Below are positions 1 to 39,235 of a stretch of 41,868 bases of DNA, piece by piece (within the stretch, counting starts at the first letter, position 1; each line of letters opens with the position of its first letter). The stretch spans positions 1 through 41,868 of IMG/VR virus record IMGVR_UViG_3300046532_004247. One strand, given 5' to 3'. The notes beneath the pieces were generated by a model, which saw only the letters and a list, made by a program, of their open reading frames with translations, had not been told where the DNA came from and did no database searches. The stretch comes from a virus. Position numbers and translations under genes: made by a program.

Positions 1-469
1 AAACGTGATGGTCTATTAGTATTTTTAAATCCTCTTCAGTTCTAAACAGATTGGCTTGAATAGCAACTCCAACATTTCCATATTTTTTATTTAATGACAT
101 AGCCAAGTTCCGAGTAAGGTCTGTCTTAAAATCCTTTGAGTCCTCCATGTCTAAACGGATCGTATGTTTGTGTTTTTTTGCCAGTTTAGCGATCTTGTCC
201 AAATGCTCGTAAGAGATAAGTGGGTGAATGAGCAGACCTAGTTGAGAGGGTTTAATGGAAATATCTAAGGGTGTTTTTTTATAAAAATTAATTATTTTAA
301 TATATTGCTCCGCAGCCCGATCACAATCATCCCGAGTTTTACTCAATTCCCCTAAATAATCCACTGAAACTTCATAGCCCTCCTCTATGAGGCTCTCAAT
401 AACAGGGCGTGCTGACTCAAAATTACTCCCAGCAATAAATCGTTTGGCCAATGGATATAAAATATTCAT
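1..469 (-). CDS. Proline dehydrogenase (FAD-dependent), C-terminus outside window
   Basis: The first 156 residues of a proline dehydrogenase, the flavoenzyme that oxidises proline to pyrroline-5-carboxylate and passes electrons to quinone. Visible family landmarks in order are an N-terminal AKRFIAG segment, VSVDYLGE (residues about 40-47), ISIKPSQLGL, RLDMEDS and IQANLFRTEEDL, which match the beta-strands of the ProDH TIM barrel; the RLDMED and YRTEEDL-type segments are especially typical. The frame stays open to the window edge, so the FAD-binding C-terminal half is not visible. It is the last gene seen in the minus-strand run and starts seven nucleotides after the stop of the preceding membrane-protein gene. 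A catabolic proline enzyme is unusual in phage and would be an auxiliary metabolic gene feeding electrons to host respiration. The family call is confident; activity is unknown because the protein is incomplete. Confidence 0.88.
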   Translation of the reverse strand, partial: MNILYPLAKRFIAGSNFESARPVIESLIEEGYEVSVDYLGELSKTRDDCDRAAEQYIKIINFYKKTPLDISIKPSQLGLLIHPLISYEHLDKIAKLAKKHKHTIRLDMEDSKDFKTDLTRNLAMSLNKKYGNVGVAIQANLFRTEEDLKILIDHHV

Positions 470-475
470 TTGGTA

Positions 476-1057
476 TCATCTATCAGGTTTTCTATGTATC
501 TCCGTCGGTAAAAGCTCATGAAACTGCCAATCTTGATCTTGAGACTCACTACCTCCCCCTTTTTTATTAGTTTTTTTATTACCCCCTTTTTTGCCATTGC
601 CTCCATCTTCGTCCAATTTTGTAAGCTTACCAAAAACAGGTTGACCTTTTTTGAGTTTATCACTTATTTTGTTAAGCTCCTCATGAAGGGGTCGGCTATA
701 CTTTAATTTAAAAAGACGAGGCTCAAGAGTGGAGTTTTTATAACTAAAAAAATCTATTATTTTATTGCTAGAATCTTTACGAGGGGACTCTGCTAAAATA
801 TATATATTGCCTTTATTTTTTAGGAGCTTATTTGGCTCTTTTATTATTACCCAATGAATTAATAGTTTTTCAGGTACATCTTTTTCTTCTGCGCCCCAAC
901 CCAAAAATGTATGAATAGATGACCAAAAAATAAGCGTAAAAACACAAAAGGATGAAATACAGGATAACTTAAAATACCATTTTAAAGATGATTCAGTTAA
1001 TATCCAAAGGGTTAGAGCTCCAAATACTAACAATAAAATTGGTAATGCTATATTCAT
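476..1057 (-). CDS. Hypothetical membrane protein with two N-terminal TM helices
   Basis: A 193-residue protein I cannot assign to a named family. Residues about 4-22 and 30-52 are strongly hydrophobic and should form two membrane helices. The rest is a soluble, Lys-rich domain. Near residues 150-170 there is a low-complexity stretch of Gly, Lys and Asn, followed by a Gln/Asp-rich tail, so the C-terminus is probably disordered. It lies between a 49-residue ORF upstream and proline dehydrogenase downstream with gaps of only a few bases, so it is co-transcribed. No catalytic motif is visible. A structural or membrane-remodelling role is possible but unsupported. Confidence 0.75.
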   Translation of the reverse strand: MNIALPILLLVFGALTLWILTESSLKWYFKLSCISSFCVFTLIFWSSIHTFLGWGAEEKDVPEKLLIHWVIIKEPNKLLKNKGNIYILAESPRKDSSNKIIDFFSYKNSTLEPRLFKLKYSRPLHEELNKISDKLKKGQPVFGKLTKLDEDGGNGKKGGNKKTNKKGGGSESQDQDWQFHELLPTEIHRKPDR

Positions 1058-4518: not shown

Positions 4519-5112
4519 TTATTCTCCTAACGGTTTCACTAAATTTGCTGGTAATTCATTTACATCTAAAATACCACCATTTTTATCCGTAGTAAAGCGA
4601 AAAGCAACCTTTTCTTCACCAACAATAGTAAACTGTCTCTTTTTTACTACAATTTCTTTAAATGGTTTGATTTTTATTAATTTAATGGTAGCAATCGTGG
4701 GCTTTTCATCTCTTTTAGAGTAAACATGAACTGTAACAACGTTTTCCCCTACTGTCACCCCTCGGAATGAAACAATCTCCTCGTTAAACAAAACCACAGA
4801 ACCCTCTTGCCCTTCACTCAAACTGTTATTGCGCCTCTTACCTAATGCGTCGTGATCTAGACTAATTAAGCTTCCTTGACCCCCTTCTCTATTATTAAAA
4901 CTTACAATATGTCCTGAGGCTGCTTTAACATAAAGGTCTAGGTCATCTTCACTCCCTCCGTCCCACGTGAGTATTACTTCATATAAAACGTTGGGAGGGC
5001 GGGCTGGTTTTTTTTCCTCCTCTGTTTTAAGTAAAAAAAGAATTGCCACCAACATGAGTAAGCAACAGAACAAGACATCAATGAACGGTCTGAATGAAAA
5101 GAATCTACGCAT
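4519..5112 (-). CDS. ExbD/TolR-like membrane protein with a C-terminal beta-rich domain
   Basis: A 197-residue protein. Residues 1-10 are basic. Residues 9-29 form one membrane helix reading PFIDVLFCCLLMLVAILF, closely matching the ExbD helix (PFIDVMLVLLIIFM); Asp12 aligns with the ion-conducting Asp of ExbD/TolR. The rest, about 160 residues, is a periplasmic beta-rich domain with WDGGSEDDLDLYV and NNREGG segments; I recall similar DLDLWV proteins in other large phages but no function. An ExbB-like gene lies just upstream, with only a 29-residue ORF bridging the two. I infer an ExbB-ExbD type proton-driven complex in which the usual peptidoglycan or TonB-binding region is replaced. Confidence 0.72.
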   Translation of the reverse strand: MRRFFSFRPFIDVLFCCLLMLVAILFLLKTEEEKKPARPPNVLYEVILTWDGGSEDDLDLYVKAASGHIVSFNNREGGQGSLISLDHDALGKRRNNSLSEGQEGSVVLFNEEIVSFRGVTVGENVVTVHVYSKRDEKPTIATIKLIKIKPFKEIVVKKRQFTIVGEEKVAFRFTTDKNGGILDVNELPANLVKPLGE

Positions 5113-5194
5113 CGTTTATTTCTTTTGCCTCTATGATTACAGCAGAAAAATCCACTTCAAATATATCCCCCTCTGGCTCATTATTATTTTTCAT
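5105..5194 (-). CDS. Bridging micro-ORF, 29 aa
   Basis: A 29-residue acidic ORF (MKNNNEPEGDIFEVDFSAVI onward) that overlaps the end of the ExbB-like gene by 11 nt and the start of the ExbD-like gene by 8 nt. The overlap pattern is that of a translational relay: ribosomes finishing ExbB would re-initiate here and again at ExbD. It has no hydrophobic stretch and no recognisable motif. It may be a real micropeptide of the complex or only a coupling device. Confidence 0.4.
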   Translation of the reverse strand: MKNNNEPEGDIFEVDFSAVIIEAKEINDA

Positions 5195-5669
5195 TGTGAT
5201 CTTCGTTTAATTTATGTTTTAAAACCATGAGTTGAATCTGTAGGGGGAGACTGAAGATAATACCACATATTGTTGTATAAAAGGCTGTGTTTAGTCCCTT
5301 TTTTAACCCTGCGACAATTGCACTTGTCGGTAAGGAGCTATCTAGATTTCCGTGCGTAGCGATGACTAGGCCAATGATAGTCCCTAGGAGTCCTAGTGAA
5401 AAAAAATGTTCCGCCGTAAACCACCCAAGTTCCGAACGCTGCTCAAGATGGTGTATTGCTTCTTTTTTTCTTTTTTCATTTATTTTATCTGCCAAATAAC
5501 AAAGGCGTCCTATATAAAGAGACACCCCAACATAAAGAACCATTATCAATAAAGAAATATAAGATAGGTCATTTTTAAAAACAGAAGAAACCATACCCTT
5601 TTGCTCTACCAAGAATAAGGCAGTTGCCATCACGGCATTAATTAAAAACCATTTTATAAATGTGCTCAT
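5184..5669 (-). CDS. MotA/TolQ/ExbB-family proton channel protein
   Basis: A 161-residue inner-membrane protein with four predicted helices at about 4-20, 36-55, 88-105 and 125-147. Family signatures are plain: FSLGLLGTIIGLVIA (about 90-104) matches the PxLGLLGTVxG helix and GLKKGLNTAFYTTICGI (about 121-137) matches the GL..AL.TT..G helix of ExbB/TolQ, which line the proton path. The ATG at 5669 is preceded by a strong GGGGAGGAG ribosome-binding site, so the longer in-frame form from 5714 is rejected. It is shorter than bacterial ExbB (about 240 aa) because the cytoplasmic loop is reduced. An ExbD-like partner follows directly. The family call is secure; the force-using partner is unknown. 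Confidence 0.87.
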   Translation of the reverse strand: MSTFIKWFLINAVMATALFLVEQKGMVSSVFKNDLSYISLLIMVLYVGVSLYIGRLCYLADKINEKRKKEAIHHLEQRSELGWFTAEHFFSLGLLGTIIGLVIATHGNLDSSLPTSAIVAGLKKGLNTAFYTTICGIIFSLPLQIQLMVLKHKLNEDHNEK

Positions 5670-5670
5670 G

Positions 5671-5883
5671 TTATGCTCCTCCCCATTCGTTAGTGTGATC
5701 GTCCAACCAATCACTTTCTGTATCTTCTTCCCCCTCTATAGGATCACTGAAGACTCTTTCCTCAATAGACACTGGAGCAATAAACACTCGTGTATTAAAT
5801 TTTTTACAATGGGCGACAGCATTTTTGCGGTGTAAAAAGCGACCAACAACTATTCTCCCTTGTAATACTTCATAAAATTTCAT
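5671..5883 (-). CDS. Small hypothetical protein, 70 aa, acidic C-terminus
   Basis: A 70-residue protein with a compact alpha/beta N-terminal half (MKFYEVLQGRIVVGRF) and a very acidic C-terminal tail (EGEEDTESDW). It ends one base before the ExbB ATG, and its last codons contain that gene's ribosome-binding site. Its start overlaps the preceding gene by 4 nt. No family is recognised and no function is suggested beyond co-expression with the ExbB/ExbD pair. Confidence 0.6.
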   Translation of the reverse strand: MKFYEVLQGRIVVGRFLHRKNAVAHCKKFNTRVFIAPVSIEERVFSDPIEGEEDTESDWLDDHTNEWGGA

Positions 5884-6146
5884 AATAAATAGGGCCCTGC
5901 TCCTTTCGTGCCCTTTGTGTATTCATTTCGCTCATCTAGGTCTGTGTAATGAAGACGATTTGCGACTTCACTTATTGTTGGGGCCTCGCCAGTGTCAGTG
6001 CGGGGCCTAATATTTGCGTCCATATCCCTTTGCTTCTCAAGGCAGACAAGCAAGTCCTTTATCCTTTTTTTAATCCACCCTTCTGAAGCAAACCATAGGG
6101 CTATGGTAATGAGGGTTTTAAAAAGTGAGAATTTTATTCTTTCCAT
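5880..6146 (-). CDS. Small hypothetical protein with possible N-terminal membrane anchor, 88 aa
   Basis: An 88-residue protein. Residues about 5-22 (KFSLFKTLITIALWFASEGW) are moderately hydrophobic and amphipathic, so a membrane anchor or membrane-surface helix is possible. The C-terminal half is hydrophilic with no recognised motif. It overlaps the SpeD-like gene upstream by 13 nt and the next gene by 4 nt, so it is part of the same translationally coupled chain. Confidence 0.55.
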   Translation of the reverse strand: MERIKFSLFKTLITIALWFASEGWIKKRIKDLLVCLEKQRDMDANIRPRTDTGEAPTISEVANRLHYTDLDERNEYTKGTKGAGPYLL

Positions 6147-6508
6147 GTTAACTCCATTAGGTTGTCCCCAAAAAACTCCTTGGTAAAGTTAATTACACTT
6201 TTATAATCAAAAGGGCGGCATGTATAAATATCCACTGAAAAAAACGGCGGTTTACGGCTATCCCACCCATAAATATGCATTCCGCTCTCCTTCCAGTGCA
6301 TATAAGCACACCAGCCATAATGTGAATCATAATTGCACACTGGGGACGTTACCGCAGTCATATTCAAAACCTCAGTAACCTCCTCGCAATAGCGAGTCAT
6401 ATCCTCGGGTTTAAAGGGGGTGTGAAGGGTTCCTTCAACTACAATGCGTTGCCTGCAGATGTCGGGGGCTAGATCGATCCATTTATTATTTAAATTACTG
6501 TTGTCCAT
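6134..6508 (-). CDS. speD: S-adenosylmethionine decarboxylase proenzyme-like (SpeD/SpeH type)
   Basis: A 124-residue protein of the short bacterial AdoMet decarboxylase class, about the length of Bacillus SpeH. The central KESGMHIYGW aligns with the family's ESHISIHTWPE; Ser75 is at the position where self-cleavage makes the pyruvoyl cofactor. FSVDIYTCRPFD matches the DvFTCG..D segment that carries the catalytic Cys. The product, decarboxylated AdoMet, is the aminopropyl donor for spermidine. The ATG at 6508 gives this length; a longer in-frame extension covers the upstream gene and is rejected. speD is a known auxiliary gene in marine cyanophages. The residue after Ser75 is Gly rather than His, so processing is likely but not certain. 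Confidence 0.75.
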   Translation of the reverse strand: MDNSNLNNKWIDLAPDICRQRIVVEGTLHTPFKPEDMTRYCEEVTEVLNMTAVTSPVCNYDSHYGWCAYMHWKESGMHIYGWDSRKPPFFSVDIYTCRPFDYKSVINFTKEFFGDNLMELTWKE

Positions 6509-7691: not shown

Positions 7692-8852
7692 TCATAGATT
7701 TTTCCCAAACACTTCATTCGATTGTTGGTTGACCCGCAAAAAAGTCGCGCACTTCGGCATGTCCTTTATCGTTTTAGCGCCAATATAAGTACAGGTGCTA
7801 CGTAGCCCACCGAGAATATTTTCCACAGTATTTTTAATGAATCCACGATGTTTTATCCTTATTGTTTTTCCCTCTGAGGAACGATACTTCGCAACACCTC
7901 CATGATATTTGTTCATAGCCGTGTCGGAACTCATGCCATAAAATGTTTTATATTTCTCTCCGTTTACTTCTTCCTCTTGTCCTTCTGATTCAGTATGACC
8001 TGCCAGCATCCCGCCCAACATAACAAAATCAGCACCAGCACAGAAGGCTTTGGCCACGTCGCCAGCACATACGCACCCACCGTCAGCCATAATATGCCCA
8101 CCAATCCCATGAGCAGCATCCGCGCATTCAATGACTGCGCTGAGTTGAGGGTAACCAACACCAGTTTGAATACGAGTAGTACAGACAGACCCGCCGCCAA
8201 TACCCACTTTAACAATATCTGCTCCACTTAATAATATCTCCTCTGTCATTTCGCCAGTGACGACATTCCCCGCAATAATAATAAGAGCGGGGTTTTCGTC
8301 TCTGACTCGTTTAATAAAATCGCAAAACCTTGATGTATACCCATTAGCTGCATCAATACAAACAAATCTATTATGGTAAAACTTCCATTGAATGTCTCTA
8401 AGGTAATCTACATCATCATAACTATTTGGGTCATATTTGATACCAATAGAAGGACAGAGATGGTCGTAAATTCTAGCTTGCCAATTCTTTGCTCCTCGTT
8501 CGTATTTCCAGTTCTTAGAGTTAGCTTCCCTGCTTTCTTGCGTTTTGAAAACCCCGTAGCCATCCAGCTTATGTAACCATCTATTTACGTCGTTGTGCTT
8601 GCTAATACAAGTCAACATATGATGTTGAGCAAGAGCCTTGGCCGTTTCAAACGTGCCAACAGTATCCATATTTGAGGCAACAATCGGAACGCCTGTCCAC
8701 CCGTAGGACTCGGGGTCAGAGCCTTCGCCACCAGCATTCTTAAATTTAAAAGTACGCATCAAATTAACATCCTTACGAGATGTTAGCTCTGAACGTTTAG
8801 GACGTAAGAGAACGTCCTTATAGTCTAACTTTATTTCTGGTTCAATTCTCAT
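7692..8852 (-). CDS. guaC: GMP reductase
   Basis: A 386-residue TIM-barrel enzyme that deaminates GMP to IMP with NADPH. It aligns along its length with Escherichia coli GuaC: MRIEPEIKLDYKDVLLRPKR at the start, ASNMDTVGTF, AGNVVTGEM, then the catalytic loop GGGSVCTTRIQTGVGYPQ with the thioimidate-forming Cys, ADGGC, FVMLGGMLAGH and FYGMSS. GMP reductase rather than IMP dehydrogenase is indicated by the loop wording, the missing CBS domains and the C-terminal LGGLRS.CTYIGA. It is about 40 residues longer than the E. coli enzyme because of insertions around residues 100-150. The ATG at 8852 matches the family start; an upstream in-frame start is rejected. With RNR and dCMP deaminase it would rebalance purine pools during infection. 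Confidence 0.93.
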   Translation of the reverse strand: MRIEPEIKLDYKDVLLRPKRSELTSRKDVNLMRTFKFKNAGGEGSDPESYGWTGVPIVASNMDTVGTFETAKALAQHHMLTCISKHNDVNRWLHKLDGYGVFKTQESREANSKNWKYERGAKNWQARIYDHLCPSIGIKYDPNSYDDVDYLRDIQWKFYHNRFVCIDAANGYTSRFCDFIKRVRDENPALIIIAGNVVTGEMTEEILLSGADIVKVGIGGGSVCTTRIQTGVGYPQLSAVIECADAAHGIGGHIMADGGCVCAGDVAKAFCAGADFVMLGGMLAGHTESEGQEEEVNGEKYKTFYGMSSDTAMNKYHGGVAKYRSSEGKTIRIKHRGFIKNTVENILGGLRSTCTYIGAKTIKDMPKCATFLRVNQQSNEVFGKNL

Positions 8853-9174
8853 TAATTTTACGGTCTGAAAATCCGCCCCCAAGCTTACCGGTGTCTTCAT
8901 CTGGTATAAATTTGTGGATACGACGCTGTTCCAGTTCTTTTCCGCCATTCATGTTTTCGAGAAATTCCATTATTGCAGAAAAAATACCGAGACTGGGATT
9001 CTTTTTTTCTATCCAATCATTCATTTTTTCCACTGCGTCATCACCTTCCATGTCTTTCTTAGAAAAAACTGCTGGAGTGGAGATCTTCATGCCCTCCTTA
9101 GTGAATGCAAGCATTGCTTCGTGGTTCTCTAGGAGGATTTTGGTACCTTTTTTGCTTTGACTTAGTATTTTCAT
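8842..9174 (-). CDS. Hypothetical protein, 110 aa
   Basis: A 110-residue hydrophilic protein starting MKILSQSKKGTKILLE. It has an alternating charged pattern, a possible amphipathic helix around the IFSAIMEFLENM segment, and a Gly-rich C-terminus (KLGGGFSDRK). No family is recognised. The ATG at 9174 lies just after the SET gene stop and is preferred over an in-frame codon 18 bases earlier; the 3' end overlaps the GMP reductase start by 11 nt, so the genes are coupled. Confidence 0.6.
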   Translation of the reverse strand: MKILSQSKKGTKILLENHEAMLAFTKEGMKISTPAVFSKKDMEGDDAVEKMNDWIEKKNPSLGIFSAIMEFLENMNGGKELEQRRIHKFIPDEDTGKLGGGFSDRKINEN

Positions 9175-26187: not shown

Positions 26188-28650
26188 ATGAGCCCTTCAT
26201 CAATTAATGTAAAAAAACGAAACGGACGACTTGAAAAGATTGACATTTCAAAAATAAATAAATGCGCCGAACGTGCGTGTGTTAATTTAGAAAACGTTTC
26301 TCCTAGTGAAATTGTACTAGATGCCCACGTTCAATTTTATGATAAAATACCCACAAAGGAGATAGACTCTGCGCTCATCCTATCCACTCGCCAAAAGATA
26401 GAAAAGGAGCCTAATTATTCCTATGTGGCTGCACGACTCCTCTTAGGGAATATCCACAAAGAGGTCTTCGGTACTAGTGTAGATAAGGACTCGTTTGATC
26501 ACCAATACAGGCTATCCTTCGTAAGCAATATTAAGAAGTTGGTGAAAGAGGAACGTCTCAATTCAAAACTTTTAGATTTTGATTTAAAAAAACTGTCTGA
26601 ATCCTTAGTTATTGACAGGGATTATAAATTTAAATACCTAGGACTACAGACTCTTTATGATCGCTACTTTCTACACTCTGACGAGAGGCGTTTAGAATCA
26701 CCTCAATCATTCTGGATGAGGGTTGCAATGGGTCTGGCTTTAAATGAAGAAGATAAAGAAAAAAAAGCCATAGAATTTTATGACGCCCTGTCTACATTTA
26801 AACTCTGCTGCTCCACCCCAACATTATTTAACAGTGGCAGTCAGAGAAGCCAACTTAGCTCCTGTTATCTTAACACTTTCGAGGACTCCATTGATGGAAT
26901 CTTTGAGGGTGCGTGGCAAGAGGCTAGAAAATCAAAATTTGCAGGAGGCCTAGGTTTCGACGTTACTAATTTTCGTTCTGCTGGGTCTCACATTAAGGGC
27001 ACAAACGGCACCTCCAGCGGGCTTGTACCTTGGCTTAAGATTTACAACGACCTCCTTGTAGCCGTTAACCAAGGAGGTAAACGGCCCGGTGCTGGATGCG
27101 CTTACTTGGAACCTTGGCACTTAGATATTGAAGATTTCCTTGAACTCAAGAAAAATACTGGTGACGAACGTAGGCGTTGTCATGATTTAAATACAGCCAA
27201 CTGGGTTCCTGATTTATTCTTTGACTATATAGAAAAAGGTAAAGAGTGGTATTTGTTTTCACCAGTTGATGCCGGCGAGCTCCATGAACTTTACGGGTCA
27301 GACTTTGATAAAAAATACGAGTCTTTTTGCAGGATGGCGGACGAAGGGGCTATAAAAAATTATAAAAAAATAAACGCCAAAGATCTATGGAAGAAGATGT
27401 TACGTGCATTATACGAGACAGGTCACCCATGGATTACTTTTAAAGATAATTCCAATCTTCGGTACTCAAACAGTCACGAAGGGGTAATACACAGCTCCAA
27501 CCTATGTACTGAGATTTTCCTACACACAAAGCCCTCTAAATACAAAGGGGGCATTAAGAGCGAGGTGGGTGAAACAGCCGTCTGCAACCTGAGCTCCGTC
27601 AACCTCAAGGAGCATCTTAAACCTAACGGGAAACTAGATTTCAAGCAACTAAGCAAAACCATAGCTATACAGTTACGTATGCTTGATAACGTAGTGGACC
27701 TTAATTTTTACCCCACTCAAGAATCCAAGAAATCCAACATGGCCCACAGACCAGTGGGCGCAGGAAGCATGGGGTGGGCAGACGTTTTCCATTCTTATAA
27801 ACTTGATTTTTCATCAGACGATGCAGTTAAGTTTTCAGACGAACTGTATGAGTTTATCTCTTACCATTGTATCTTAAACTCAAGCAAGCTTAGTAAAGAG
27901 CGTGGGTCGTACTCGACTTATGAAAATTCCCTTTGGGACAAAGACATGTTACCGATTGATACCTATAAGGGGTTAATGGACTACCTGAACGAAAAACCAC
28001 TAGTTCATAGAGGAAAAAAATTCACCCCTGAAGTTGACTGGAAAACCTTAAGGGCTCACATTAAAGACTACGGAATGCGTAACAGCAACACAATGGCAAT
28101 TGCGCCCACGGCAACTATATCTTACATTCAAGGATGCGCCCCCTGCATTGAGCCAGATTTTTCAGTTTTATTCGTTTATGAAAATAAAAGCGGAAACCTG
28201 ACGATTATTAATGAATGGTTTGTTAAAGAGTGCAAAGAACTTGGCATATGGAGCTCCCACTTTATTGAAGCCCTAAAGGCGGTAGACGGAGACGTTAGAG
28301 ACCTTGATATCCCCCAAGATTTAAAAGACAGGTTTAAGAACGCCTTTAGTCAAGATCAGTTTAAATTAATTGATAATGCAGCGGCCAAGCAAAAATGGAT
28401 CGACATGGGTCAATCGCTTAATCTTTTTAACGACAATACGTCCCTTAAATATTTAAACGACCTTTACTTCCATGCAAGAAAAAGGGGGCTCAAAAGTACC
28501 TATTACCTAAGGAATAAAAGTGCAAGCAAAATTGAAAAATCTTCGTCTGGCGATAACAATAATAATAACAATACAGGTACTAGCGATAGTAGCGGGACTG
28601 CTGATGAGTCTTGCTCGATCATAGACCCCACATGTGAAAGCTGTCAATAA
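26188..28650 (+). CDS. nrdA: Class I ribonucleotide reductase large subunit
   Basis: An 820-residue NrdA that reduces ribonucleotides. An N-terminal ATP cone (about 1-95: VKKRNGRLEKIDISKINKC) supports allosteric dATP control. Active-site residues are intact: Cys226 in SSCYLN, Asn438-Cys440-Glu442 in SSNLCTEI (thiyl radical Cys and acid-base Glu) and Cys466 in AVCNLSSV. Tyr772-Tyr773 in STYYLR carry the radical. The C-terminal pair Cys816/Cys819 (TCESC) accepts reducing power. A low-complexity Asn/Thr/Ser linker (about 788-805) precedes that tail, making it longer than in E. coli NrdA (761). The stop overlaps the NrdB start (TAATG). Confidence 0.95.
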   Translation: MSPSSINVKKRNGRLEKIDISKINKCAERACVNLENVSPSEIVLDAHVQFYDKIPTKEIDSALILSTRQKIEKEPNYSYVAARLLLGNIHKEVFGTSVDKDSFDHQYRLSFVSNIKKLVKEERLNSKLLDFDLKKLSESLVIDRDYKFKYLGLQTLYDRYFLHSDERRLESPQSFWMRVAMGLALNEEDKEKKAIEFYDALSTFKLCCSTPTLFNSGSQRSQLSSCYLNTFEDSIDGIFEGAWQEARKSKFAGGLGFDVTNFRSAGSHIKGTNGTSSGLVPWLKIYNDLLVAVNQGGKRPGAGCAYLEPWHLDIEDFLELKKNTGDERRRCHDLNTANWVPDLFFDYIEKGKEWYLFSPVDAGELHELYGSDFDKKYESFCRMADEGAIKNYKKINAKDLWKKMLRALYETGHPWITFKDNSNLRYSNSHEGVIHSSNLCTEIFLHTKPSKYKGGIKSEVGETAVCNLSSVNLKEHLKPNGKLDFKQLSKTIAIQLRMLDNVVDLNFYPTQESKKSNMAHRPVGAGSMGWADVFHSYKLDFSSDDAVKFSDELYEFISYHCILNSSKLSKERGSYSTYENSLWDKDMLPIDTYKGLMDYLNEKPLVHRGKKFTPEVDWKTLRAHIKDYGMRNSNTMAIAPTATISYIQGCAPCIEPDFSVLFVYENKSGNLTIINEWFVKECKELGIWSSHFIEALKAVDGDVRDLDIPQDLKDRFKNAFSQDQFKLIDNAAAKQKWIDMGQSLNLFNDNTSLKYLNDLYFHARKRGLKSTYYLRNKSASKIEKSSSGDNNNNNNTGTSDSSGTADESCSIIDPTCESCQ

Positions 28651-29657
28651 TGAAAGATGGATCAATACTTGGAGAAGAGATAGTTGGAGTAAATCAAATT
28701 TTACCCCACAAACACCAACTAGCATGGGACTTATTTCTCAAGGGGGTGGCTAATAATTGGTCCCCATCAGAAATAAACATGAGCACGGATGTAGGCCAAT
28801 GGAAAAACGGACAGTTGACGGACGACGAAAAGTTACTCGTCAAAAGATGTCTCGGGTTCTTCGCTGGGAGTGAATCATTAGTAGGTAACAACTTATTACT
28901 CACAGTAGCCAAGTGGGTAACCGACCCAGAGTGTCGCCAGTATATCCTAAGACAGGCGTACGAGGAGTCCCTACACAACTGGACTGTTGTTACGTGCTGT
29001 GACTCGTTCGGCCTCAAGGTTGCTGATGTTTACGAGGCTTACTTAAACATCCCAAGTATTAAAGCTAAAGATGAGTTCTTGATGGGTATAACCGCCGACG
29101 TTAACAGATCAGACTTCAGCACTAAAACCACAGAAGGCAAGAGAGAGTTTCTCCGTAACTTGATTACCTATTACATTGTATGTGAGGGCACCTTTTTCTT
29201 TAGCGGATTTGCCATGTTACTTGCGCTGGGTCGACAAAACAAATTACCGGGACTTTCAGACCAAATTCGTTACACGTTAAGGGATGAAACCCTACATATT
29301 CAGTTTGGAACCTACTTAATCAATACCATTAAAGAACAGTACCCTGCCGTGTGGACCAAGAAGTTCGAACAAGAAACAGTAGAACACGTAAAAAGGGCTG
29401 TGGAACTGGAGATACAATACGCACATGATGTTCTTCCGCGTGGAATTCTTGGCTTGAATGCTGAAATGTTTATAGACTACATGGAATACATAGGTAACAG
29501 GCGTCTAGAGGGAATAAACGTTGATTTTCGATTTAAGAGCGACCACAACCCATTCCCGTGGCTCTCAGAAGTAGTGGACACAGGGGCTATGACAAATTTC
29601 TTCGAAAGAAAGGTAAAAGATTACCAAAACTCTGGTACGCTTAAAGATGATTTTTAA
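28650..29657 (+). CDS. nrdB: Class I ribonucleotide reductase small subunit, class Ic-like
   Basis: A 335-residue ferritin-fold R2 protein that supplies the oxidising equivalent to NrdA. Metal ligands: Glu75 (in FFAGSESLVGNN), Glu106 and His109 (EESLH), Glu179, Glu213 and His216 (RDETLH). Two positions stand out: the first ligand is Glu where E. coli has Asp84, and the residue at H+4, where E. coli has the radical Tyr122, is Val113. This is the pattern of the Chlamydia trachomatis R2c group, with its Mn/Fe cofactor and no tyrosyl radical; the local SESLVGNN also resembles the chlamydial protein. The NrdA C-terminal peptide should bind in trans. There is no Y-to-V frameshift or damage nearby. 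Confidence 0.95.
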   Translation: MKDGSILGEEIVGVNQILPHKHQLAWDLFLKGVANNWSPSEINMSTDVGQWKNGQLTDDEKLLVKRCLGFFAGSESLVGNNLLLTVAKWVTDPECRQYILRQAYEESLHNWTVVTCCDSFGLKVADVYEAYLNIPSIKAKDEFLMGITADVNRSDFSTKTTEGKREFLRNLITYYIVCEGTFFFSGFAMLLALGRQNKLPGLSDQIRYTLRDETLHIQFGTYLINTIKEQYPAVWTKKFEQETVEHVKRAVELEIQYAHDVLPRGILGLNAEMFIDYMEYIGNRRLEGINVDFRFKSDHNPFPWLSEVVDTGAMTNFFERKVKDYQNSGTLKDDF

Positions 29658-30900: not shown

Positions 30901-31761
30901 GTGCGTTATATTTTAATTAATGACTTTTTCTCAGAAGACTTAGCTGGCGGGGGGCACGCTGGCGGGGCCGCTCTTAATGATGAAATTCTTATTGATATAT
31001 TTAAGGCCAACGGTCAAGAGATAGTTAAGCTTAAAAGCCCCGATGTGACTTCGGATTTCCTTAAAAAAGAAAAAGATTCATTTTTTATAATTTCTAATTT
31101 TTTTCGTTTCTCGTCCATTGAAATGCTTAAGGAATTTGAGGAATTAAAATACATTATTTACGCCCATGATTATAAGTTCGTTAACCACATGAACCCCGCC
31201 AGATACGACAATTTTATAGTCCCCGAAAATGAATTGATTTGTGTAGATTTCTTCAGGGCAGCTAAATCTGTAATTTGCCAATCCAGTTTACAACAAAAAA
31301 TTTACGACAAAAATTTAAAAGACAATGTTAAGACTTTAAATTTTTCAGGCAACCTTTGGTCGCTTGAAGCTCTGGCCGTGATGCGTGACCTTTCCGATGG
31401 AGACAAAAAACCCATGAGCTCTGTGGTTAAATCTCACTATGCGGAAAAAGGAACCCCAGAAGCTATTAAATTTTGCATAGACAATAAGATGGATTATGAA
31501 CTAATATTTGACGCGGATTACGAATCTTTTTTACGTAAAATTTCAAAAAACCAAAGTTTGGTGTTTTGGCCAAAAACCCCCGAGACCTGTGGTCGAATGG
31601 TTCTAGAGGCTAAAATGATGAACGTAAAGGTTGCATTCAACAACCTACTAGGCGCATCCCACGAACCGTGGTTTAATAAGGACGGCGAAGAACTAATAGC
31701 CGAAATGACAAACAAACGTCAAGAAATATACGATATAATTAGCGCAATTGCCACACGGTGA
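30901..31761 (+). CDS. GT-B-like glycosyltransferase, divergent
   Basis: A 286-residue protein beginning at GTG (MRYILINDFFSEDLAGGGH). The opening strand-loop with a Gly-rich AGGGHAGG resembles the acceptor-domain start of GT4 enzymes, and a late FWPKTPETCGRMVLEAKMM segment corresponds to the donor-domain P.E..gl...EAma motif. Overall similarity is low. It opens the long glycan island and its stop overlaps the next start (GTGA). Substrates are unknown. Confidence 0.68.
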   Translation: MRYILINDFFSEDLAGGGHAGGAALNDEILIDIFKANGQEIVKLKSPDVTSDFLKKEKDSFFIISNFFRFSSIEMLKEFEELKYIIYAHDYKFVNHMNPARYDNFIVPENELICVDFFRAAKSVICQSSLQQKIYDKNLKDNVKTLNFSGNLWSLEALAVMRDLSDGDKKPMSSVVKSHYAEKGTPEAIKFCIDNKMDYELIFDADYESFLRKISKNQSLVFWPKTPETCGRMVLEAKMMNVKVAFNNLLGASHEPWFNKDGEELIAEMTNKRQEIYDIISAIATR

Positions 31762-32564
31762 AAAAAAATAACTATAAATATCTAAGCGGTAACGCATTCA
31801 AAAGTATTTGCAAATACTCCTGTGGCCACTATACATCCGCCAGAGAACACCACTTCAATTTTAAGGTACGAGATGACGTAGAAAATAATTATGTCTTCAT
31901 AAAAACAGAGTACACATTTCCGTTTTTTGAACACATCCATTTAGACTTCCCCTTTACGGTAATTACGCATAACTCCGATGAGGCTATTGATGAAAGATTT
32001 CGCCAATTCATCGACCACCCATTGGTAGAGAAATGGTATGGACAAAACATAAACCTTAAGCACCCTAAGCTCGAATCAATTCCAATAGGGCTGGCTAACC
32101 CTAAATGGGCGCACGGAAGCCCCAATGAGGTTAGCAAGGTGATCCTCGAATCCCAACCAGCGACATACAGGAAGACCTCCCTAGTTTATGTTAATTTTGA
32201 CATAGGGACTAACCCACGGGAAAGACTTTCGTGCTTAGAAGAGACGGGGCTACAAAACGCCGACAGGGTAGACTTTCCAACTTATCTGAACACTATGTCA
32301 GAGTCCTACTTTGCCCTCTCCCCTAACGGCAATGGAATAGATTGCCATAAACACTGGGAAGCTCTATATTTAAAAACAATTCCCATAGTTACAAAAAGTA
32401 TAAATATGGATTTTTATAAAGATATGCCATTTTTAGTATTAAATGACTGGTCTGAATTAAAAAATATTACTCTCTCTAAGGAACTTTATGATTCTATCTG
32501 GAAAGACTTCAACCCAGATACAATTCTTTTCCCACAATACGTCAACAAAAAGGGGCTCGGGTGA
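31758..32564 (+). CDS. Exostosin-like glycosyltransferase
   Basis: A 268-residue protein starting at GTG and overlapping its neighbours by 4 nt on both sides. ALSPNGNGIDCHKHWEALYL followed by KTIPIV is the family signature of exostosin-like and related GT-B transferases (sP.G...d..r.weal..G.iPvv). An earlier NDFPxx-like IGLANPKW block also fits. It lacks the second GT domain of animal exostosins. Acts probably on a surface glycan. The exact linkage is not inferable. Confidence 0.72.
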   Translation: MKKNNYKYLSGNAFKSICKYSCGHYTSAREHHFNFKVRDDVENNYVFIKTEYTFPFFEHIHLDFPFTVITHNSDEAIDERFRQFIDHPLVEKWYGQNINLKHPKLESIPIGLANPKWAHGSPNEVSKVILESQPATYRKTSLVYVNFDIGTNPRERLSCLEETGLQNADRVDFPTYLNTMSESYFALSPNGNGIDCHKHWEALYLKTIPIVTKSINMDFYKDMPFLVLNDWSELKNITLSKELYDSIWKDFNPDTILFPQYVNKKGLG

Positions 32565-33622
32565 AACAAAACGTATTGATAACAGGGGCATCAGGTTTAA
32601 TAGGATCTCAGTGTGTTGAATTTTTTAGCGATCTGGGCTTTAATGTCATTGGTGTAGACAACAATATGCGGGCTTACTTCTTTGGTCGGGACGCATCAAC
32701 TCAGTCAATTAAAGAGAGGCTAGAATCCAAGTACCCCTTATACCAGTGCCTCCCGCTAGATGTAAGAGAAATGGGTGCCATAGAATTCGTTTTTAAAAAA
32801 ACGAACATTGACCTAATAATCCACACCGCCGCCCAGCCATCTCACGACTGGGCTGTAAGAGAGCCGCTTACGGATTTTTCGGTTAACGCCCAAGGAACCT
32901 TGAATCTCCTTGAATTATGCCGCCTATACTGCCCCGAGGCTACCTTCATTTTCACCTCAACGAATAAAGTTTACGGGGATACACCCAACAAGCTTAAGTT
33001 AACAGAACTTGAAACTAGGTATGAATGCTTCGACCCCCAAGGTCTCCCTTATAGCATTGATGAAGGCATGTCTATTGATCAGTGTACTCATTCTATTTTT
33101 GGAGCCTCAAAAGTGGCAGCAGACATAATGGTTCAAGAATACGGCAGGTGCTTCAATATCAAAACAGGAGTTTTTAGGGGTGGCTGCCTCACAGGGCCAA
33201 ACCATAAAGGGGCAGAGCTTCACGGGTTCCTTTCATATTTAGTAAAATGTATTACGCATGGTGAGGATTATACTATATTTGGGTATAAAGGAAAACAGGT
33301 CAGGGATAATATACATAGCGCTGATTTAGTTAATATGTTCTGGGAGTTCCACCAAAAACCAAGAAGAGGAGAAGTCTACAATGTAGGGGGCGGAAGAGGC
33401 AATTCGGTATCCGTCCTCGAGGCTATAGATAAAATTAAAAAAATCTCCAACAAAAAGTGGGACTCATACTCCTTAAGCCCCCAAGCTAGAGCAGGAGATC
33501 ACATGTGGTACATTACTGACTTTTCTAAATTTCAAAACCACTTCCCCTCATGGCAATTAACCCACAGCATTGACCAGATTATTGAAGAGATAGTTAAATA
33601 CGAACATGACTCAGCAACCTAA
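32561..33622 (+). CDS. NAD-dependent sugar-nucleotide epimerase, CDP-paratose-2-epimerase-like
   Basis: A 353-residue extended short-chain dehydrogenase. Rossmann motif GASGLIG (9-15), HTAAQPSHDWA, FTSTNKVYGD (131-140), then SIFGASKVAAD. The layout matches TyvE/CDP-paratose 2-epimerase-like proteins, particularly the STNKVYGD and RGGCLTGPNH segments. The catalytic YxxxK reads Phe180-x-x-x-Lys184: the Tyr is replaced by Phe, which I recall from a subgroup of these proteins and which implies altered chemistry. It starts at GTG, coupled to the upstream gene. Confidence 0.82.
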   Translation: MKQNVLITGASGLIGSQCVEFFSDLGFNVIGVDNNMRAYFFGRDASTQSIKERLESKYPLYQCLPLDVREMGAIEFVFKKTNIDLIIHTAAQPSHDWAVREPLTDFSVNAQGTLNLLELCRLYCPEATFIFTSTNKVYGDTPNKLKLTELETRYECFDPQGLPYSIDEGMSIDQCTHSIFGASKVAADIMVQEYGRCFNIKTGVFRGGCLTGPNHKGAELHGFLSYLVKCITHGEDYTIFGYKGKQVRDNIHSADLVNMFWEFHQKPRRGEVYNVGGGRGNSVSVLEAIDKIKKISNKKWDSYSLSPQARAGDHMWYITDFSKFQNHFPSWQLTHSIDQIIEEIVKYEHDSAT

Positions 33623-34535
33623 ATTAAAAATAAATTTTGTAGATTTCTGGCCAGACTTCCATAAGGATAATAATTACTTTTATCACTTATTGAATTCAAA
33701 ATTTGACGTTGAAATTAGCGAAGGCGACCCCGATATTCTATTCTTTTCTGTTGATTACGCCAAGCAACGTGCCCGAGATAAATACAAAGACCACCGATGC
33801 ACAAAGGTTTTCTTTTCAGGTGAAAATGTTAGGCCTAACTATGGCAACGACTCAGCAGAACACACCATGTATAGTATTGGAAAGTGTGATTTTGCCTTTA
33901 CCTTTGATTTCAGTAATGACCCACGCCATTACCGCTTGCCTCTATGGGCTCTTCAAATTGACTGGTTTGAAAAGGGGGGGTACGTTAACCCACAGTTTAT
34001 ATTACCGCTCAACCAAATTTACAGCAACCCAGCTATCGCTATGCCCAAGATCAAGTTCTGTGCTTTTATTTTTAATAACCCAGTACCTAGGCGTCTGGAA
34101 ATTTTAAATAAATTAAACAAACATAAAGAGGTTCACGGGTATGGACAACCCTTTAACAACTGGTTCTACGGAGAGTACAACAAGTACAAGGTGCTCTCTC
34201 AGTATAAATTTTCTATTTGTTTTGAGAATTCTATCTCTCCAGTCGGAGGGTATTACACCGAAAAGCTTTTTCATGCCAAGACAGCCGGGACGGTACCGAT
34301 TTATTGGAGTGACGAAAGATGTGCTAATGATTTTAATGTTAAAAGTTTTATAAACCTTAATGACTTTGAGTCGATGGACAAACTCGTGGATCACGTTCTG
34401 GAGGTAGACGGCAATGAAGAGCTATACTTAAGCTATCACAGGGAGCCGCTTTTTAACAACAAGCAAATCAAAGATGAATTTTTACCCTCATCTGTGCTTA
34501 AATTTTTTGAAGAAAAGGTTATTAAAAATGCTTAA
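33606..34535 (+). CDS. GT10-family alpha-1,3/1,4-fucosyltransferase-like
   Basis: A 309-residue GT10 enzyme that transfers fucose from GDP-fucose onto a glycan. The signature region is clear: FSICFENSISPVGGYYTEKLFHAKTAG and VPIYWSDERCAND, which match the bacterial GT10 pattern FaiCFENs..pGYvTEKl..a...g.vPiYwG. FFSGENVRPNYG upstream is the N-terminal-domain counterpart of TGEn..p. GDP-fucose could come from mannose-1-phosphate via the phosphomannomutase encoded at 13310 plus host enzymes. It overlaps the previous gene by 17 nt. A GT10 gene in a phage suggests cell-surface glycan mimicry. Confidence 0.87.
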   Translation: MTQQPKLKINFVDFWPDFHKDNNYFYHLLNSKFDVEISEGDPDILFFSVDYAKQRARDKYKDHRCTKVFFSGENVRPNYGNDSAEHTMYSIGKCDFAFTFDFSNDPRHYRLPLWALQIDWFEKGGYVNPQFILPLNQIYSNPAIAMPKIKFCAFIFNNPVPRRLEILNKLNKHKEVHGYGQPFNNWFYGEYNKYKVLSQYKFSICFENSISPVGGYYTEKLFHAKTAGTVPIYWSDERCANDFNVKSFINLNDFESMDKLVDHVLEVDGNEELYLSYHREPLFNNKQIKDEFLPSSVLKFFEEKVIKNA

Positions 34536-35250
34536 TGTAGAAAAAATTTTCGTACTCCACTATACCAAACTCACGGAAAGAAGAGAGAGGTTGGATAAAT
34601 ACCTTAAACGACACAACCTAGAGGTAGAGTATATTTTAGATTACGACCAAGAAGACCTGACTGAGGATGTTGTAAATGAGTGGTACTCAACTAACGAAGA
34701 AGAATATAACGCCAAAATAGACCCCCTCTGGGGCGTCAAAACAGCCCCCTTCCGAAAACTTAACCGAGCTGAAATCTCATGTACCATTAAACATTACCTT
34801 GGTATTAAAAGTGTCGCCGAGAAGTGTACTGATTACGGTTTAATACTGGAAGACGACGTATTGTTTGTGGAAAATTTTCCTGAAACTTTTAACACTTTTC
34901 TTTCCAATACACCTAACGATTGGGGGGCCATCTTCATGGGGTGTTGCGCCGGGTTAAGGATACCGCCTCATTTTATTAAAGAAAACATAAACGCCTATCA
35001 AGTCCCCCACCCTGCATCAAGAGGTGGCGATTCATACATCCTGCGTAAAGAAGTAGCTGAAAAAATTATCTCTACTATGAAGCCCTTTAACACAATAAGC
35101 GACTGGGAGCTTGGCTACCAACTACACCTACACAATGTAAAAACCTACTGGTGGGAACCACCCTTAGTTGTACAGGGGTCCGAGAACGGTCTTTATAAAA
35201 CAACTTTAAATGACGATAACCATAGGCAAACCCACGGAGGTGTATGTTGA
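34528..35250 (+). CDS. GT25-family glycosyltransferase
   Basis: A 240-residue protein of the LPS-type GT25 family. VEKIFVLHYTKLTERRERLDKYL (3-25) is the donor-binding start, LNRAEISCTIKHY is the GE.gC..SH segment in which the Glu is kept, and GLILEDDVLF contains the EDD metal-binding acidic triad. I use the ATG at 34528 with AGAAAAGG before it; a start further upstream would lie within the fucosyltransferase gene. It transfers galactose-like sugars in related enzymes. Confidence 0.82.
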   Translation: MLNVEKIFVLHYTKLTERRERLDKYLKRHNLEVEYILDYDQEDLTEDVVNEWYSTNEEEYNAKIDPLWGVKTAPFRKLNRAEISCTIKHYLGIKSVAEKCTDYGLILEDDVLFVENFPETFNTFLSNTPNDWGAIFMGCCAGLRIPPHFIKENINAYQVPHPASRGGDSYILRKEVAEKIISTMKPFNTISDWELGYQLHLHNVKTYWWEPPLVVQGSENGLYKTTLNDDNHRQTHGGVC

Positions 35251-36338
35251 AAAAAATAGCATTTATTAAATTTGCAGGATTAGCCGCAGGAGGTTGTGAA
35301 AAATACCTCCAAAACATTGCCTGTATATTATCAAACAGCCAACAGTTTGAGGTGGATTACTATTATACTAATGCCGCCCCTTATATAAACTGGAGTTCCC
35401 CGTTTATACACCCCGATAATGATGAATCTAGACAAAAAATAATGGAGGATCATCAAATTAATCTAATAAAAGTAGACGTGCAAAATAAAGACGGGAGCGG
35501 GCCGCCCTATGAATGGATCAATACTAATTTTTGGGAACTTTTTGATGAGAATCAATATGATTATGTTTCGAGTGCTCGCTCTGGTTACCCCGAGTACCCG
35601 TTTCATCTTATTAATAAGACAAAAATAATTGACACAATTCACGGTCAGGACGGAGAAGACAAGGTTAACATTAGCAAGGTTATTTTATTATGTGAATGGC
35701 AGGCTAAACAGTGGTCCGAGAACGGAGGCAATATTGCTAAAGCCACGGTTATACCCACCCTAGTTAAAGTTCCGCCCAAAACCCCCAGCTTACTTAGGCA
35801 AAAACTCAGCATCCCCTCAGATGCCTTTGTTTATGGATTCCACCAAGGGAGCCGTGAAGATATTTATTCACCAGTTTCCCTTGAAGCTTATAATCAAATT
35901 AAAAATGAAAATAATTATTTCATAATTATGGGCGCATCAGAACAACACCGAAAATTCGCAGAACAAATAAATTGCCCTCATATTAAGTTTATAGATTTTT
36001 CTAGTTGTGTAAACGATATACATGATTTTCTCGGCGGTATTGATGTTTTTGCACACGCCCGTAATGATGGAGAAGTTTGCTCTGCTGCGATCATTGAGGC
36101 TCTGTATCACGGGAAGCCGGTTATATCACACCCTGCTATGAACATGGGTCACCAAGAGCAAATAGAAGGCTGCGGTAAGATGGTGTACAGTGTTCAGGAG
36201 TATGCACAAGAAATGCTTACGCTAGAACAAAACGATGCCTACTACCAAACCCTCTCCCTAGCAGCAGAGGAGAAATATACTGCAAAATATAGCTACGCCA
36301 CGATAAGAGATAAAATCTTACAACTTTACAAAACATGA
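35244..36338 (+). CDS. GT-B glycosyltransferase, GT4-like
   Basis: A 364-residue protein. KIAFIKFAGLAAGGCEKYLQN (start) has the G-rich GG.E....l loop of GT4 enzymes; the C-terminal ICR FAHARNDGEVCSAAIIEALYHGKP (about 270-295) is the donor-binding E..a..lEalyhG.P motif. A GFHQGSREDIYSPVSLEAY stretch forms the linking loop. It overlaps the GT25 gene by 7 nt and the GHMP kinase by 4 nt. It is likely an elongating hexosyl- or heptosyltransferase. Confidence 0.82.
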   Translation: MLKKIAFIKFAGLAAGGCEKYLQNIACILSNSQQFEVDYYYTNAAPYINWSSPFIHPDNDESRQKIMEDHQINLIKVDVQNKDGSGPPYEWINTNFWELFDENQYDYVSSARSGYPEYPFHLINKTKIIDTIHGQDGEDKVNISKVILLCEWQAKQWSENGGNIAKATVIPTLVKVPPKTPSLLRQKLSIPSDAFVYGFHQGSREDIYSPVSLEAYNQIKNENNYFIIMGASEQHRKFAEQINCPHIKFIDFSSCVNDIHDFLGGIDVFAHARNDGEVCSAAIIEALYHGKPVISHPAMNMGHQEQIEGCGKMVYSVQEYAQEMLTLEQNDAYYQTLSLAAEEKYTAKYSYATIRDKILQLYKT

Positions 36339-37270
36339 TAATTAGTAAGTGTTCCACTCGCATATCCTTAGCAGGAGGGTCTACGGACCTGCAAGAATTT
36401 ATAGAAAACTATGGGTACGGAAGTGTAATAAGTTTCCCTTGTAATATTTATACTTATATCACCCTGTTTAAAGATAAAGGTGGGTACAATAAGCTTAATA
36501 CCTACCTATTGAACTACACTCAACGTGAAGAAGTAGAGCAAGTTAAAGATATCCACAACGACATTGGGAGGGTAGTCTTAGAGCACTTCAACTGCCCCCC
36601 TGTTACCTTAAATTTTCACTCGGACGTTTTTGCATCAGGCTCAGGTCTAGCCTCTTCATCCTCCTATCTAATTAGCTGTATCAAGGCAGTAAGCACTCAT
36701 CTTAATGTCCAGATGAATACATGGGAAATATGCGAGCTTGGACTTGAGCTAGAAAGAAAATTTAATCCCTTAACCGGCTACCAAGACATTTATGGCTGTG
36801 CAACCGAAGGGCTCAAGCAATTAGTTTTCCTTAAAGACGGAAGCGTTACCCATGCGGGGCTTAGAAAAGATTTCTTAAACCAATTTAAAATGTATCTTCG
36901 CCCAACAGGAATACAAAGAAGTTCCACAAAGGTTTTGTCCAGCATTGACACAAAGCGCAGCGAGGCCCTTTTACCCTTTGTTAGTTACATGAGTGACGCC
37001 ATAAAAAAGAATGATGTAAGTAAATTTTTAGGATTAATGCAAGAGTCATGGGAGGTCAAAAAAAGCACTTCCCCTCTTATTTTAGAAAACGAAAAACTAA
37101 AGGAGATGGATCGTTCTTTATATAAAGATAAATCTACCCTAGCTCACCGCTTATGTGGGGCAGGTAATGGTGGTTTCTTTTTGATTTTCCGTGATAAAAA
37201 CTATAACGAACCCACCTTCGACATACCAATCGGGGTTGCAGAGATTCCCTACTTATGTACAAAAAATTAA
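36335..37270 (+). CDS. GHMP-family kinase, D-glycero-D-manno-heptose-7-phosphate kinase-like
   Basis: A 311-residue GHMP kinase. The N-terminal STRISLAGGSTDLQEF is the family's first motif in the form seen in HddA-type sugar kinases (R.SfaGGGTD), FASGSGLASSSSY (99-111) is the ATP-binding P..GLgSSa loop, and LAHRLCGAGNGGFFLIF is motif III. HddA phosphorylates heptose-7-phosphate at C1 in the GDP-heptose route; fucokinase-like GHMP enzymes share the start, so the substrate is inferred. The neighbouring nucleotidyltransferase and the C7-cyclase down the operon both suit a seven-carbon sugar. It overlaps both neighbours. Confidence 0.83.
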   Translation: MIISKCSTRISLAGGSTDLQEFIENYGYGSVISFPCNIYTYITLFKDKGGYNKLNTYLLNYTQREEVEQVKDIHNDIGRVVLEHFNCPPVTLNFHSDVFASGSGLASSSSYLISCIKAVSTHLNVQMNTWEICELGLELERKFNPLTGYQDIYGCATEGLKQLVFLKDGSVTHAGLRKDFLNQFKMYLRPTGIQRSSTKVLSSIDTKRSEALLPFVSYMSDAIKKNDVSKFLGLMQESWEVKKSTSPLILENEKLKEMDRSLYKDKSTLAHRLCGAGNGGFFLIFRDKNYNEPTFDIPIGVAEIPYLCTKN

Positions 37271-37665
37271 AAATCGGATTTACCGCCAGCTGTTTCGACC
37301 TATTACACGCAGGACACTGTTTAATGCTTAAAGACGCACGGGAGCAATGTGATTGGCTTGTGGTGGCCCTACAGTCAGACCCATCCATAGATAGGCCCGA
37401 AAAAAATCAACCGATCCAATCTCTAGATGAACGTAAAATTCAACTAGAAAGCTTAAAATATGTAGACCAAATAGAACTCTACGAAACAGAGGAAGATTTA
37501 GTTTTCTTACTTAAGAAAATCAAGCCAGATGTTCGCATTCTGGGAACTGACTACAAGAATAAAGATTTTACTGGACAAGAATTAAATATTGAAATATTCT
37601 TTCATGAAAGAAACCATCCATGGTCAACCTCAGAACTTAGAAAGAGAATTAAAGAAAATGAGTAA
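37255..37665 (+). CDS. Cytidylyltransferase-like nucleotidyltransferase, 136 aa
   Basis: A 136-residue single-domain enzyme. FTASCFDLLHAGHCLMLKDA (9-28) has the nucleotide-binding His18-Ala-Gly-His21, SDPSIDRPEKNQPIQSLDERK fits the R.k..P.......R segment, and WSTSELRKRI resembles the C-terminal sSTs.li..i signature of TagD/HldE-type proteins. It activates a phosphorylated sugar or alcohol with CTP or ATP. It overlaps the GHMP kinase by 16 nt and the epimerase by 8 nt, so kinase, nucleotidyltransferase and epimerase form a tight unit. A second copy of the family lies at 12048. Confidence 0.85.
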   Translation: MYKKLKIGFTASCFDLLHAGHCLMLKDAREQCDWLVVALQSDPSIDRPEKNQPIQSLDERKIQLESLKYVDQIELYETEEDLVFLLKKIKPDVRILGTDYKNKDFTGQELNIEIFFHERNHPWSTSELRKRIKENE

Positions 37666-39234: not shown

Positions 39235-39235
39235 G

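Follow-up and report, generated by a model that had tools for sequence, protein, structure and literature searches.

A functional, monofunctional proline dehydrogenase (PRODH) is probably encoded by phages as an auxiliary metabolic gene and forms a phage branch of its own, a reading to which we assign a probability of roughly 0.75. It rests on a real gene in phage context, a single branch among the sampled sequences, a conserved fold with conserved catalytic residues, and purifying selection. The gene lies at the left edge of the window, the whole 41,868-base stretch of DNA analysed here, which is a linear IMG/VR virus record that ends inside PRODH (Table 1). Related genes occur in two phage groups, one resembling the window and the other T4-like.

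Table 1. Features of the 41,868-base window and the evidence for each.
Feature	Position	Strand	Evidence
Proline dehydrogenase (PRODH), first 156 residues	2..469	-	ORF; Pfam, NCBIfam and PDB matches; cut by contig end
193-aa protein	476..1057	-	Directly upstream of PRODH; 69% identical in L002; no Pfam match
MotA/TolQ/ExbB-type protein and ExbD-looking neighbour	4519-5112 and 5184-5714	-	PF01618 31.4 bits, cut-off 22.9
SpeD (AdoMet decarboxylase)-like protein	6134..6508	-	PF02675 34.2 bits, cut-off 25 (longer ORF)
GMP reductase	7692-8948	-	505 bits, cut-off 397
Class I ribonucleotide reductase	26188-29657	+	Large subunit by Pfam, small subunit by eye
Run of glycosyltransferase, sugar-nucleotide and cyclitol-type genes	30901-41866	+	Mostly by eye; conserved in G001
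3-dehydroquinate-synthase-like protein	40931-41866	+	PF01761 111.8 bits

The PRODH reading frame of the window begins at an ATG and meets no stop before the left contig end. Pfam Pro_dh (PF01619) matches the fragment at 50.5 bits (cut-off 27; E 2.8e-13) over profile positions 4-134 of 278, and the Thermus enzyme in the PDB (2ekg) matches at E 7.6e-14. Both are far above chance and bear out the earlier note, which had recognized the N-terminal half of a PRODH at 1-469. The NCBIfam Thermus-type PRODH model gives 76.9 bits, far under its full-length cut-off of 500. Residues E41, K73 and D107 of the fragment correspond to Thermus E65, K99 and D133, and the remaining catalytic positions lie beyond the contig end. 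The same note had expected a C-terminal FAD domain further to the left. However, PRODH is one barrel domain and no separate FAD domain is expected; what the contig end cuts away is the second barrel half, which is intact in the relatives L002 and L009, whose PRODHs of 280 residues each score 95.8 and 109 bits with PF01619 (cut-off 27).

A scan of viral contigs with a single sequence returned just L002 as a relative; its contig (G001) is 99,812 bases long. Its PRODH is complete and is 79% identical to that of the window over 156 residues. Among the 129 window ORFs of at least 60 aa, 99 match this contig, all within its positions 28,065-72,508, and the matches extend across the window, with PRODH as the leftmost gene and the 3-dehydroquinate-synthase-like gene as the rightmost. 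Gene order is the same save for one swap (the genes at 1213-1830 and 2095-2721); the remaining breaks in order involve antisense ORFs that overlap. Given this collinearity with G001, the window derives from a related virus. Only 6 bases separate the 193-aa gene from PRODH in the window, whereas an ornithine cyclodeaminase-family gene sits between the two in L002.

This collinearity bears on the reading that the left end of the contig joins host or other bacterial DNA, or is misassembled. PRODH does lie at the very end of the contig, and two deposited phage records with PRODH look like bacterial DNA. Nonetheless, the neighbouring genes, by which the earlier note had proposed to exclude misassembly, place PRODH within a gene block common to an independent 99.8-kb viral contig. 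Dozens of other contigs have PRODH amid phage genes, and the window fragment is at most 40% identical to 47 PRODHs from outside the phage branch but 79% identical to its viral neighbour. A host join or misassembly is thus extremely improbable in general, and it is already refuted for the lineage of the window.

A search profile built from five complete phage PRODHs recovered the gene from 59 viral contigs. In 58 of these the protein is at least 47% identical to L030, a PRODH of 298 residues. The remaining protein, L089, is 31% identical to L030 and groups with a Parageobacillus PRODH; it was set aside as lying outside the phage branch. Scans with one, two or three sequences had yielded one to three viral loci, owing to poor peptide patterns, and all such counts are lower bounds. 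Most of the loci L029-L089 (54 of 61) reach a stop codon, while seven run off the contig end. Clustering of neighbouring genes sorts them, besides L089, into 45 T4-like and 15 window-type loci. More than one contig has PRODH amid true phage genes, and the role of PRODH as a viral auxiliary gene, proposed in the earlier note, is supported by the gene block common to the window and the 99.8-kb contig, by the 58 viral contigs of this kind and by their single branch on the tree.

Bacterial genome contigs were scanned with a weak three-sequence profile, and its two matches are a lower bound: L029 in a Marinimicrobia MAG (UBA2980) and L030 in an Acidimicrobiaceae MAG (SP304). L030 is surrounded by genes for tail tube, UvsY, helicase, dUTPase, late sigma factor, SbcD and SbcC (PHROGs), and the L029 contig carries gene clusters as in L030. 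Both contigs are T4-like phage on this evidence, and the two MAGs were rejected as PRODH hosts; the contigs reflect binning contamination or DNA from infected cells. Apart from these two contigs, the PRODHs of the two bacterial groups searched are at most 38-39% identical to L030. The MAG labels are therefore at best weak hints of the host.

Of the 45 T4-like loci, 38 have PRODH immediately behind the gene for the late sigma factor gp55, and the other seven have gp46 and a small gene ahead of it. Where gp55 comes first, PRODH begins within the last bases of gp55 in all but one locus, with an overlap of 1 or 4 nt at the stop codon (37 of 38 loci). The exception is L029, in which gp55 passes into a run of N. 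The T4-like major head (capsid) protein of L063, recognized by PHROGs, is 63-64% identical to those of Pelagibacter and Methylophilales phages. Because its start overlaps the end of the gp55 gene, T4-like PRODH is probably made with the early or middle replication and recombination genes and not with the virion proteins, judging by position only.

Phylogenetic analysis placed 41 phage PRODHs on one side of a branch with a long stem, apart from 34 others (100/99). Left off the tree were 20 phage rows, either nearly duplicate or incomplete, together with 14 of the 47 comparison rows; these were compared by BLAST only. The comparison PRODHs came from two bacterial groups, in which 104 of 149 and 41 of 148 genomes, both phage contigs counted, have a PRODH match, and from a few plasmid and other records, and a nearer cellular relative may exist. 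Within the sampled sequences, the phage PRODHs form a branch of their own. T4-like rows form one group (100/99); window-type rows do not, with L087 standing apart. The window PRODH is sister to L074, which is the same gene as in L002 (100/94). Phage PRODHs are at best 41% identical to the 47 other PRODHs, or 43% for two partial rows; L089, outside the phage branch, reaches 52%. L030 has matches in 56 of the 72,556 records of a plasmid collection, and the 30 listed among these are at most 36% identical.

The phage proteins retain the hallmarks of a working enzyme. None of the 28 aligned phage PRODHs varies at the positions equivalent to Thermus E65, K99, D133, Y275, R288, R289 and E292; we take D133, Y275 and E292 to have catalytic roles. 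K99, R288, R289 and the E65-R288 gate are named in the available text of a study of the Thermus enzyme (PMC6017737). The predicted structure of the L002 protein has the PRODH barrel fold (pLDDT 90.9, pTM 0.88), and its best PDB match is Deinococcus PRODH (4h6q, TM 0.88). The model is least certain in its first ten residues (pLDDT 63), where the N-terminal arm matters. Phage PRODHs begin near Thermus residue 25, with the segment equivalent to helix C still present (LAKRFIAG against LVRRYVAG). According to the same text, Thermus PRODH without helices A and B (dAB) is highly active, whereas activity is nearly abolished when helix C is removed as well (PMC6017737). The ratio dN/dS is 0.06-0.29 across ten pairs; for the pair of window and L074, dS is saturated (2.0). 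From dN/dS, residues and fold together, PRODH is therefore kept as a working protein, with its activity predicted.

Window-type loci are marked by recurrent neighbours, including the MotA/ExbB-like, ExbD-like and 193-aa proteins, a small kinase and others, not all of them in each locus. The ornithine cyclodeaminase-family gene of L002 encodes 310 aa (PF02423, 210 bits). Two contigs of 142 and 118 kb (L009 and L010) were reached through this gene; they are identical over the 2,001 bases compared, and in both a complete PRODH is followed by a cyclodeaminase-family gene with a 20-base overlap. As the records are fragments, its counts of 8 in 14 window-type records searched and 0 in nine T4-like records searched (of 45 loci) apply to the parts available. 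The gene adjoins PRODH, or almost does, in four distinct viruses, and either of the two may come first. None was found within the 41,868-base window, and by analogy with L009 a copy could lie beyond the cut edge. The viral contigs L021 and L025-L028 also carry cyclodeaminase-family genes (38-68% identical to that of L002), with PRODH absent from the available part.

What this neighbour does can be narrowed to its family. Its closest solved structure is alanine dehydrogenase 1omo (2.8e-54), presumably the Archaeoglobus enzyme, followed by pyrroline-2-carboxylate reductase (3.1e-29), ornithine cyclodeaminase (4.4e-27) and lysine cyclodeaminase (8.6e-24). Against NCBIfam, it falls short of the cut-offs for both alanine dehydrogenase (188.6 bits, cut-off 409.15) and ornithine cyclodeaminase (138.7 bits, cut-off 350). 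The neighbour in the relatives is thus best described as a putative member of the ornithine cyclodeaminase family, an assignment at family level only. An aldehyde dehydrogenase gene is present in 8 of 14 window-type records. One such protein, from G001, gave 279.8 and 261.8 bits against L-glutamate gamma-semialdehyde dehydrogenase cut-offs of 648 and 659.65. It scores higher with other aldehyde dehydrogenase models, and the scores do not identify it as a phage pyrroline-5-carboxylate dehydrogenase. A complete phage route to glutamate is only a possibility.

Other genes for amino-acid or amine metabolism, and some of less obvious purpose, accompany this lineage. A PLP-dependent decarboxylase lies directly upstream of PRODH in L009 (3889-4992; NCBIfam histidine decarboxylase 489.9 bits, cut-off 305), and L021 has a histidine-decarboxylase-type gene 82% identical to it. 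Window-lineage phages L138 (3701-5236, 7094-8218) and L141 (4098-7163) have an aldehyde dehydrogenase near a protein that by eye resembles saccharopine dehydrogenase and has no NCBIfam match; in L141 a SpeD-like gene, also assigned by eye, lies between the two. These genes may represent an amine or lysine-type module. The ExbD-looking protein of the window was likewise assigned by eye and has no Pfam match. In L002, the copies of the MotA/ExbB and ExbD-like pair are 73-81% identical to those of the window, L021 and L024, and the MotA/ExbB copy has a weak ZorA-type match far under the cut-off; such a proton-channel-like pair is odd on a phage. A terminase of the lineage (G002, L017) has matches in 65 named phage records but in no case across 80% of its length, and the ten listed of these 65 are 23-25% identical over about 60%. 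With matches this distant, the window lineage is therefore, by this marker, one without a close cultivated relative in the named phage collection.

The earlier note had also placed SpeD in the same operon as PRODH. A SpeD-like gene is indeed real at family level and lies on the same strand, but it is more than 5 kb upstream and the operon link is weak. Its start was set at an internal ATG, since the longer reading frame, to 6601, would overlap the following gene. The protein is 79% identical in L002 and has no match among named phages at 1e-5. Read without gaps, which the alignment may need, it has a Tyr five residues after the Ser of the E-S pair and a Cys at +22. The processing residues published for T. 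maritima AdoMetDC (S63, H68 and C83) are spaced otherwise, according to PMC10407285, where other phage SpeD homologues are described as ornithine or arginine decarboxylases by activity. As a link to amino-acid metabolism, the cyclodeaminase-family gene beside PRODH in relatives holds up better than SpeD.

The view that PRODH is not a common phage gene has stood up well. No PHROG family matches the window PRODH at E 0.001, and of 50,697 named phage records just 5 contain a PRODH, which is 29-34% identical to L030. Two of these, Microcystis phage MaAM05 and Staphylococcus phage UPMK_1, were discarded as evidence for viral PRODH on account of their bacterial-looking neighbours. In these two records, PRODH lies near a riboflavin operon and a leucine-tRNA ligase in MG543995 (L005), and near an acyl-CoA dehydrogenase and others in MW495066 (L003); both regions are probably bacterial DNA in phage records. 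The three other named records with a match carry no annotation, one of them being an unverified scaffold, and they too were set aside as evidence. No isolate with a phage-branch PRODH was found in the named phage collection. Among the open-licence papers that the literature searches listed, none was found to describe phage PRODH earlier; a virus-encoded PRODH came up in PMC11953307 only, and PMC11654794 and PMC10683058 turned out, by their available content, to be false matches for virus-encoded PRODH.

Enzymes of the PRODH family convert proline to pyrroline-5-carboxylate and deliver the electrons to quinones. By the proposed mechanism, the phage enzyme would bind FAD and oxidize host proline to pyrroline-5-carboxylate, and the electrons would pass to host respiratory quinones, a transfer that is plausible by analogy with the family. 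Proline, and perhaps ornithine where a cyclodeaminase-family enzyme is present, would then fuel phage replication, and pyrroline-5-carboxylate could continue to glutamate by host enzymes. From these sequences we infer that some phages probably make their host burn proline during infection.

Two other uses of the same protein were weighed against fuel. PRODH might mainly lower a pool, either of proline as an osmolyte or of ornithine and arginine in competition with polyamine synthesis, or it might make pyrroline-5-carboxylate as a signal or toxin. The window lineage lends this some colour with its SpeD-like, cyclodeaminase-family and histidine-decarboxylase-type genes (the last in L009 and L021), all of which act on amino acids or amines. 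However, 45 of 60 loci (without L089 and the window) are T4-like, and none of the nine T4-like records searched has the cyclodeaminase-family gene, so PRODH alone is under selection there. Fuel and pool-lowering also follow from one reaction and are inseparable by sequence; we regard a mainly pool-lowering role as unlikely. Alternatively, the substrate may be a proline analogue such as hydroxyproline or pipecolate, the latter made from lysine by the cyclodeaminase-family enzyme, for instance. The match of that protein to lysine cyclodeaminase structures and the aldehyde dehydrogenase found in window-type records fit such chemistry. Against it, the best matches of the phage PRODHs are proline enzymes and the Thermus Y275 equivalent is invariant in 28 sequences; a Ser at this position presumably goes with hydroxyproline use, which fits the title of the Y540S/hydroxyproline structure 3e2q. 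An analogue as substrate is accordingly a quite improbable reading.

Oxidation of proline as fuel remains the preferred reading, and it invites a broader, tentative conjecture. Large uncultured phages might run ornithine to proline to pyrroline-5-carboxylate, and perhaps on to glutamate via a phage aldehyde dehydrogenase, thereby feeding host arginine or ornithine and proline into respiratory electrons and glutamate, while a separate T4-like set would carry the proline step only. We consider this scheme possible though rather doubtful. If true, it would amount to a phage-borne amino-acid catabolic pathway, not one borrowed enzyme. Phage auxiliary genes described so far serve mostly photosynthesis, carbon, nucleotide, phosphate or polyamine metabolism. 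A PRODH branch in two phage groups would add amino-acid respiration to these functions, and it would presumably sustain the energy supply of amino-acid-using hosts. Experimental handles are at hand in the site directly behind gp55 in T4-like phages and in the cyclodeaminase-family pairing of the other group.

Several known systems offer points of comparison. Two giant viruses of haptophytes, PkV RF02 among them, likewise encode PRODH homologues according to PMC11953307, but they infect eukaryotes, and the parallel is drawn from their description. Kyanoviridae T4-like phages (HTVC008M, Methylophilales phage Melnitz and Synechococcus phages) share the gene order around gp55. In contrast, the three named relatives examined have no PRODH between gp55 and gp47, where HTVC008M has one very short ORF, and the five named records with a PRODH match include none of these phages. 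The phage neighbour protein belongs with the ornithine cyclodeaminase/mu-crystallin family by PF02423, and its HINAVGAD aligns with HINAIGAD of the archaeal alanine dehydrogenase; it differs in being nearest to alanine dehydrogenase, ahead of ornithine cyclodeaminase. The closest enzymatic parallels are the PRODHs of Thermus thermophilus (2g37/2ekg) and Deinococcus radiodurans (4h6q), with which the phage proteins share the fold (TM 0.87-0.88 by query length) and the catalytic residues, although they are only 30-33% identical in structural alignments. The phage proteins lack the first part of the N-terminal arm of the Thermus enzyme and are in this respect comparable with its engineered dAB form.
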